From Frateuria hangzhouensis (GTDB taxonomy: Bacteria; Pseudomonadota; Gammaproteobacteria; Xanthomonadales; Rhodanobacteraceae), in contig NZ_JAPMIU010000002.1 in assembly GCF_026410505.1 (NCBI RefSeq), forward strand, positions 248,001-312,000: a DNA stretch of 64,000 nucleotides, in the 5' to 3' direction. Within the stretch, counting starts at the first letter, position 1. The number at the start of each line of letters is the position of its first letter. Positions 20,029-21,820 of this stretch are shown in pieces. The translations under genes were made by a program, and so were the position numbers. Below the pieces are notes generated by a model. The model did not search any database and had not been told where the DNA came from. It saw only the letters and a program-made list of their open reading frames with translations.

Positions 20029-20741
20029 GAGAAACGGCCGAGGCCGAGCGCATCCGCCTGGAGCCTTCCTGGAAGGCGCGCCTGGGCGATTACCTGGAAC
20101 GTCCGGACATGCGCGCGCTGGCCGGCTTCCTGCGCGAGAGCAAGCGCGCCGGCAAGGTGCTCTACCCGCCGGGACCGGACATCTTCAACGCGTTCGCGCA
20201 CACGCCGTTCGACAAGGTGCGCGTGGTGATCCTGGGCCAGGATCCGTATCACGGCCCCGGCCAGGCGCACGGACTGTGTTTCTCGGTGCGGTCGGGCGTG
20301 CGGGTGCCGCCGTCGCTGGCCAACATCTTCGCCGAGATCGAGCGCGACCTGGGCCTGCCCCGTCCCGACCACGGTTGCCTGACGCCCTGGGCCGACCAGG
20401 GCGTGCTGCTGCTCAACAGCGTGATGACGGTCGAGCAGGGTCATGCCGGCGCGCACCAGAACAAGGGCTGGGAAGGTTTCACCGATGCCGCCATCGAGGC
20501 GCTCGACCGCGAGCGCGAGGGGCTGGTGTTCCTGCTGTGGGGCGCCTATGCGCAGCGCAAGGGCAGGCTGGTCGATCCCTCGCGACACCTGGTGCTGAGT
20601 TCGGTCCATCCCTCGCCGCTGTCGGCGCACCGCGGTTTCATCGGCAACGGGCATTTCTCGGCGGCCAACCGCTATCTGGAAAGCCGCGGACAGGCGCCGA
20701 TCGACTGGTCGCTGCCGCCGCGTTCCGAGTTGAGCACCTGA
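20025..20741 (+). CDS. ung: Uracil-DNA glycosylase, family 1
   Basis: Ung removes uracil from DNA in base-excision repair. The 238-residue protein has the water-activating motif [14 protein letters not shown] (about 72-85), the uracil-binding [22 protein letters not shown] segment and the DNA-intercalating loop [11 protein letters not shown]. The GTG start at 20025 overlaps the stop of the receiver protein by 4 nt and gives a normal N-terminus ([19 protein letters not shown]). Length is as expected. Confidence 0.96.
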
Positions 20742-20913
20742 GCCATGGCGGGGGCCGCAATGGAGTGATGCCCGCCCCGGAGTGGCCAGTTCACGGCCGA
20801 TAGATCGCCGTTGTGAACAATGGCCGCATGACCGCGCGGCGAGGGCTGGCAGTGTCGCCTTCATTGCTGTACGATTCGGTACAATAAATCCCGCAGCCGA
20901 ACTTTTCGCCCCT

Positions 20914-20940
20914 TTAGCACTCTCAACATTGGAGTGCTAA
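20914..20940 (+). promoter_or_regulatory. CIRCE operator (HrcA binding site) upstream of rpoH
   Basis: TTAGCACTC - N9 (TCAACATTG) - GAGTGCTAA is a perfect copy of the CIRCE inverted repeat with the canonical nine-base spacer. It ends 28 bp before the rpoH ATG. HrcA binding here would repress rpoH until heat stress removes HrcA. A TACAAT (20880-20885) lies just upstream and could be the -10 element, placing CIRCE in the transcribed leader, its usual location. A second small inverted repeat, TGTAC-N6-GTACA (20868-20883), overlaps that hexamer. Confidence 0.92.
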
Positions 20941-20968
20941 GCTGCGATTTACTTACCGGAGGTTTCAC

Positions 20969-21820
20969 ATGTCCCAAGCCCTGGTGACCGCCAACCTGCC
21001 GATTCCCAGCGTCGTCGGCAGCCTGGATGCCTATATTTCGGCCGTGCACCGGATCCCGGTGCTCAGCCACGACGAGGAGCAGGCGCTGGCGCGCAGCTTC
21101 ATCGAGGCGGACGACCTCAATTCGGCCAAGAAGCTGGTCATGGCGCACCTGCGTTTCGTGGTGCACGTGGCGCGTGGCTACTCCGGCTACGGCCTGCAAC
21201 TGGGCGACCTCATCCAGGAAGGCAACATCGGCCTGATGAAGGCGGTCAAGCGCTTCGACCCGGACCAGGGCGTGCGCCTGGTCAGCTTCGCGGTGCACTG
21301 GATCCGCGCCGAAATGCACGAGTTCATCCTGCGCAACTGGCGCATCGTCAAGGTCGCCACCACCAAGGCCCAGCGCAAGCTGTTCTTCAACCTGCGCAAG
21401 AGCAAGAAGCGCCTGGGCTGGATGAACGCCGAGGAAGTGCGCGTGGTGGCCCATGACCTGGGCGTGCCGGAGGCGACCGTGCGCGAGATGGAATCGCGCC
21501 TGTCCGGCCGCGACATCGGCTTCGAGGCCCCCACCGACGCGGACGACGATGCCCGCCCGGCGCCGGAGGCGTTCCTGGTCGACGACGGCGCCGATCCGTA
21601 CGACAACGTGTCCGACGCCGACCAGGCCGATAACCAGATGGAAACGCTCTCCAGCGCGCTGTCCAAGCTGGACGATCGCTCGCGCGACATCATCCAGCGG
21701 CGCTGGCTCAACGAGGACAAGGCCACCCTGCAGGACCTGGCCGACGAGTACGGCGTGTCGGCCGAGCGCATCCGCCAGGTCGAGGCGAACGCGATGAAGA
21801 AGATGCGCGCGGTGTTCTGA
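20969..21820 (+). CDS. rpoH: RNA polymerase heat-shock sigma factor (sigma-32)
   Basis: RpoH directs RNA polymerase to heat-shock promoters. The 283-residue product contains region 2 ([57 protein letters not shown]) and, decisively, the RpoH box [10 protein letters not shown] (about residues 132-141). Region 4 ends in a helix-turn-helix ([26 protein letters not shown]). The ATG is preceded by CCGGAGG at a good distance. The perfect CIRCE operator in its leader implies HrcA control of the sigma factor itself. A strong terminator follows. Confidence 0.97.

Follow-up and report, generated by a model that had tools for sequence, protein, structure and literature searches.

A CIRCE operator in front of rpoH appears to overlie a sigma-E type promoter in Frateuria hangzhouensis and related bacteria

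The rpoH locus and the CIRCE sites of the host genome

The window, a 64,000-nucleotide stretch of a Frateuria hangzhouensis contig, carries between 16047 and 22911 a tatB-like gene, a tatC-like gene, ftsE, ftsX, a two-receiver protein gene, ung, rpoH and a transaldolase gene, in this order. The tatB-like and tatC-like reading frames were named by eye, the protein encoded between ftsX and ung contains two response-regulator receiver stretches, and the transaldolase gene sits on the opposite strand. In E. coli, ftsE-ftsX are also found upstream of rpoH. Compared with that arrangement, the window has two genes between ftsX and rpoH.

The rpoH reading frame was identified by TIGR02392 (408.2 bits, cut-off 323.1). 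Five genomes of the host's own genus have rpoH with 94-96% identity, and the closest named relative among the 80 matches listed, where near records may be missing, is Dyella flagellata with 88%. As listed in Table 1, rpoH is preceded by a Shine-Dalgarno sequence and by the inverted repeat TTAGCACTC-TCAACATTG-GAGTGCTAA, which ends 28 nt before the gene and matches CIRCE with 0 mismatches. Allowing up to 3 mismatches, it is the sole CIRCE in the window, and 100 shuffles give an expectation of 0.00. The perfect CIRCE in the rpoH leader, on which the original prediction was built, is thus confirmed.

Table 1. Elements read in and upstream of rpoH, with positions in the window.
Feature	Position	Strand	Basis
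Possible sigma-70 -35, TGGCAG (family TGGACA)	20847-20852	+	family logo
TGTAC-N6-GTACA inverted repeat (family TGTACNATTNGGTWCA)	20868-20883	+	family conservation
Possible sigma-70 -10, TACGAT (family TACNAT)	20870-20875	+	17 nt after the -35; suggested by the family logo
-35 of sigma-E type promoter, CGAACTT (consensus GGAACTT)	20898-20904	+	fixed place at -16/-17 before CIRCE
CIRCE, predicted HrcA operator, TTAGCACTC-N9-GAGTGCTAA	20914-20940	+	exact match, unique in the window; kept in the family
-10 of sigma-E type promoter, TCTCA, inside CIRCE	20921-20925	+	16 nt after the -35; A12 conserved
Shine-Dalgarno, GGAGG	20958-20962	+	read in the sequence
rpoH, heat-shock sigma factor sigma-32, 283 aa	20969-21820	+	TIGR02392 above cut-off

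The repressor that would bind this operator is encoded in the host genome. An hrcA gene was found at 305 bits (cut-off 197.2), with grpE adjoining it. When the whole genome was searched at up to 3 mismatches, two CIRCE sites were obtained, the perfect one at rpoH and a second one with 1 mismatch located 52 nt upstream of groES, in front of groESL; the reversed control pattern had no match. Upstream of hrcA-grpE, no CIRCE was seen at up to 5 mismatches within 4 kb around hrcA, so the visible CIRCE sites of this genome are those of groESL and rpoH. By eye, the groESL site overlaps TTGCAG-N16-TAGAAT, that is, the classical position at a sigma-70 -10.

Conservation of the operator and co-occurrence with hrcA

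We analyzed 117 genomes of the family, and hrcA was above the cut-off in all 117. One genome (G037) was left out because its best rpoH match was at most 33%, which gave 116 rpoH genes. CIRCE (up to 3 mismatches) was found before 114 of them and was perfect before 88. Its distance to the start of the RpoH alignment is 20-42 nt, and 26-32 nt in 95 of the 114. The operator is therefore kept at rpoH in close relatives, as would be expected from the original prediction. The two rpoH genes with no recognisable CIRCE (G006 and G055) are in genomes with hrcA; in the second of these leaders (L157), visual inspection shows a diverged repeat, TTGGCGCAC...GAGCGCCAA, perhaps a decaying operator. Exactly two CIRCE sites with no more than 2 mismatches are present in 97 of the 117 genomes, one in 15 and three in 5, while the reversed control gave one match (in G046). 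The identity of the family's other site as that of groESL was confirmed in the host genome and in G055.

Beyond the family, 80 named rpoH loci were taken, two of which (L060 and L073) were dropped for too little upstream DNA. The remaining 78 were scored for CIRCE with up to 3 mismatches within 350 nt of rpoH, and weak or partial hrcA matches (L023, L058 and L070) were scored as present. Both CIRCE and hrcA were found in 40 loci, CIRCE only in 2, hrcA only in 6 and neither in 30 (Fisher p 4e-13, shared ancestry ignored). The two loci with CIRCE and no hrcA found (L012 and L049) are both from metagenome bins, the six with hrcA and no CIRCE at this threshold are L005, L009, L024, L043, L080 and L083, and the group with neither includes the Vibrio, enteric, Haemophilus and Shewanella loci. 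In Pseudoalteromonas luteoviolacea (L023), a perfect CIRCE at rpoH is accompanied by an HrcA relative whose 117.5 bits fall short of the family cut-off.

These counts bear on the size of the effect. HrcA might bind and yet have a small effect on rpoH if the sigma-32 level depends mainly on translation and turnover. Control of sigma-32 in E. coli is indeed chiefly post-transcriptional. However, selection on the site is suggested by the 88 of 116 family members whose arms are perfect and by the lack of CIRCE in 30 of the 32 named loci without hrcA, and we consider such a small effect very unlikely.

The operator also occurs in other forms. A symmetric variant, TTAGCAGTC-N9-GACTGCTAA, was found with 0 mismatches in 9 of 121 genomes of the order, 8 of the 9 being in one family (f2). 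The gene behind it was checked in 5 of the 9 genomes, and in all five the variant stands before rpoH (L201, L238, L240, L244 and L249). Hybrids of the two forms make up 7 of 10 groESL sites taken from variant genomes and from four named relatives. A hybrid of TTAGCACTC with GACTGCTAA, which breaks a base pair, is present in 7 of 8 rpoH leaders of one genus (g10). One of the hrcA-only loci above, Xanthomonas pisi (L005), has a diverged, related form of CIRCE, and L009 perhaps has one too. Of the 53 loci drawn from the variant search and a second search, six (L207, L221, L230, L236, L247 and L251) matched neither rpoH nor groES; in the second search the rows with 1 mismatch are partly due to chance, since the control matched in most genomes as well. 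Together, the variant and hybrid operators fit a slow drift in the preference of one repressor, and they suggest a changed HrcA specificity in the variant-bearing genomes.

Instead of serving as a DNA operator, an inverted repeat in a leader might work in the mRNA, as a stability hairpin or a thermometer. The predicted fold of the leader, at -37.5 kcal/mol, is more stable than those of its shuffles (z -3.83). CIRCE forms a stem in it, and the Shine-Dalgarno is likewise paired, its partner being the beginning of the coding region. Against a role in RNA, the arm letters themselves are conserved (106-114 of the 114 family sites at each position), and the presence of CIRCE follows hrcA. The broken pair of the hybrid sites likewise argues against a conserved RNA hairpin. 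We regard this possibility as extremely improbable. A search of 20700-21300 gave no Rfam match up to E 1. An RNA family in the leader, such as a thermometer, was rejected on this result and because, in spite of the stable fold, it is the letters of the arms and not their pairing that are kept.

A sigma-E type promoter form across the operator

Promoters for sigma-E have the form GGAACTT-N16-TCnnA. When the 114 family sites were aligned on CIRCE, a second block, GGAACT, was seen at -16 to -11, and 103 of the sites have an A at position 12, within the otherwise free N9 spacer. In the window, the -35 matches GGAACTT at 6 of 7 bases and is followed after 16 nt by TCTCA, which is formed by the last two bases of the left CIRCE arm and three bases of the spacer, its final A being position 12. 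CIRCE at rpoH thus looks like an operator laid over a sigma-E type promoter. This overlap was absent from the original prediction. HrcA, sigma-E and sigma-32, three stress systems, appear to meet here on about 43 base pairs.

The geometry is conserved. A -35 with at least 6 of 7 bases is located at -16/-17 in 86 of the 114 family sites. At -16 alone, at least 5 of 7 bases were matched in 76 sites, compared with a mean of 1.49 and a maximum of 8 in shuffles, and 11 sites have fewer than 5 of 7 bases. Within the family, the -35 and A12 occur together in 77 sites, the -35 only in 9, A12 only in 26 and neither in 2. There is no association between them (p 1), because both are near fixation.

Such an association is seen among the named loci. 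With up to 5 mismatches allowed in CIRCE, 43 named sites were available, 25 of which have a -35 at -16/-17 (6 or all of the 7 bases); every other adjacent pair of positions tested from -10 to -58 gave at most 1. A12 is present in 23 of these 25 and in 4 of the 18 sites without the -35 (p 3.5e-6, Fisher, shared ancestry ignored). In twelve of the 18, CIRCE stands 93-233 nt upstream of the RpoH match; a Rhodanobacter locus (L075) is also among the 18. At 15 groESL CIRCEs with 0 to 5 mismatches, the -35 was found in none and A12 in one. Class-wide, a composite pattern of CIRCE plus promoter, with 3 mismatches allowed, occurs in 104 of 274 genomes, and its reversed control in 0. This control tests the composite pattern and not the -35 alone, which is supported by the family, named and groESL comparisons. 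When 30 of the composite matches were checked for the gene, 28 stood before rpoH, one stood at groES and one was on a short contig that matched neither.

The promoter form is also present where the operator is missing. GGAACTT-N15-17-TCnnA occurs within 350 nt of rpoH in 18 of 35 loci without CIRCE, compared with 1.1% per locus in shuffles. In G006, which has lost CIRCE at rpoH, GGAACC is kept and, by eye, TCGAA follows 18 nt on. Three enteric loci (L038, L055 and L061), in which neither CIRCE nor hrcA was found, have GGAACTT-N16-TCTGA; the window has CGAACTT-N16-TCTCA, with its -10 inside the operator. We take GGAACTT-N16-TCTGA at the rpoH of Kluyvera and Lelliottia to be the counterpart of E. 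coli P3. The promoter of the window looks like a counterpart of P3 as well.

A real promoter of this form might be read by an ECF sigma factor other than RpoE, given that the RpoE family model has 10 matches in the host genome. One of the 10 is above the cut-off (314 bits against 236.15), and this rpoE is itself preceded by the same form, TGAACTT-N16-TCTGA. That form recurs at the enteric rpoH loci, and P3 of E. coli rpoH is sigma-E dependent, both of which speak against another ECF factor. We think its use here decidedly unlikely.

Farther upstream, the original prediction had placed a second inverted repeat, TGTAC-N6-GTACA, over a putative -10. The repeat is present as described, and the motif around TGTAC is strongly conserved in the family, 25-59 nt upstream of CIRCE. 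The palindrome itself is not conserved, since GTA and GTT are equally frequent in its right half (49 each in 101 family members aligned on it). A sigma-70 -10 accounts better, though not fully, for what is kept: the family logo anchored on this motif reads TGGACA-N17-TACNAT. A generic sigma-70 scan of 20740-20990 gave 0 promoters, so this promoter is read from the family logo, and it may give basal transcription of rpoH. To the right of its -10, the conservation of GGTWCA exceeds the needs of a -10 and start region. A regulon for TGTAC-N6-GTACA was also considered and rejected. With 3 mismatches allowed, the pattern matches the host genome 36 times on the forward and 32 times on the reverse strand, against 34 and 32 for the control, which leaves nothing above background apart from the rpoH copy.

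HrcA might control rpoH solely by blocking a polymerase that starts at this upstream sigma-70 promoter, with the sigma-E-like sequence inactive or minor here. The conservation of TGGACA-N17-TACNAT in the family is in favor of this, and so is the one base by which CGAACTT in the window differs from GGAACTT. However, across genera the sigma-E type -35 holds a fixed place and has A12 as its partner in an otherwise free spacer, it is absent from the groESL CIRCEs examined, and its block persists in G006 without CIRCE. We judge blocking of sigma-70 polymerase as the only route to be unlikely.

Proposed control of rpoH

Our preferred reading, which we hold to be very probable, is that CIRCE here is an HrcA operator that controls rpoH and covers both the -10 and the likely start site of a sigma-E type promoter. 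The analysis establishes the elements with their constant spacing and their conservation, and it finds hrcA, rpoE and a groESL operon with its own CIRCE in the genome. HrcA binding, the use of sigma-E, the link to GroEL and the feedback are inferred, as follows. In Bacillus, HrcA needs GroEL for activity. Free GroEL would keep HrcA active and CIRCE occupied, and sigma-E polymerase would be excluded from rpoH, as the two proteins are unlikely to sit on the same bases together and HrcA should veto the promoter. HrcA on CIRCE may also stop polymerase arriving from the upstream sigma-70 promoter. Unfolded protein would titrate GroEL, HrcA would release CIRCE, and rpoH would be transcribed if sigma-E were active too. 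New sigma-32 would then raise the chaperones, GroEL included, and HrcA would shut the promoter again. The net effect would be a coincidence gate on rpoH that opens upon envelope stress plus GroEL shortage. The HrcA-rpoH connection of the original prediction is thus supported by CIRCE, by hrcA and by conservation, whereas its wiring of HrcA in series with sigma-32 is likely to be replaced by HrcA gating a sigma-E input, because the operator overlies a sigma-E type promoter.

CIRCE at rpoH is widespread and not new as such. A survey by Permina and Gelfand from 2003, cited in PMC545781, covered beta-, gamma- and epsilonproteobacteria and may well describe such sites there. With that possible report and the Geobacter prediction below, we count CIRCE at rpoH as known. 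In Geobacter sulfurreducens, CIRCE before rpoH was predicted in 2004 (PMC545781, Table 8); according to the accessible parts of that report, a perfect CIRCE stands 51 nt before rpoH and another is found at groESL, as in the host. Unlike the host, Geobacter also has CIRCE before hrcA-grpE-dnaK-dnaJ, and no mention of a sigma-E promoter at its rpoH was found in those parts (PMC545781). Likewise, CIRCE laid over a sigma-E promoter appears undescribed in the open-access literature on CIRCE, HrcA and rpoH searched, as far as the accessible parts of these papers go (PMC545781, PMC3989490, PMC11764788, PMC3224663 and PMC3135505). Compared with HrcA/CIRCE control of groESL, the operator is the same, with 1 mismatch in the host's groESL copy. 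At rpoH, however, HrcA would act on the gene for a sigma factor, and its operator covers a sigma-E type -10, unlike at the 15 groESL sites examined.

More broadly, rpoH might carry a two-key lock in much of the gamma- and betaproteobacteria: its HrcA operator and sigma-E -10 would have bases in common, and the stress promoter would fire only under envelope stress and GroEL shortage together. We propose this tentatively, with the balance tipped slightly against it. On this proposal, the enterics, for which HrcA was searched and not found, would retain the promoter but not the lock, having lost it or never acquired it, and their reliance on translation and turnover for rpoH control may follow.

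Most accounts present HrcA and sigma-32 as alternatives for heat-shock control, and the model for rpoH is E. coli, which is not known to have HrcA. Since the visible CIRCE sites of the host are at groESL and rpoH, HrcA would reach the entire sigma-32 regulon by way of rpoH. The bases shared by operator and promoter give a sharp and testable prediction on how two stress signals are combined, and they suggest what E. coli lacks.
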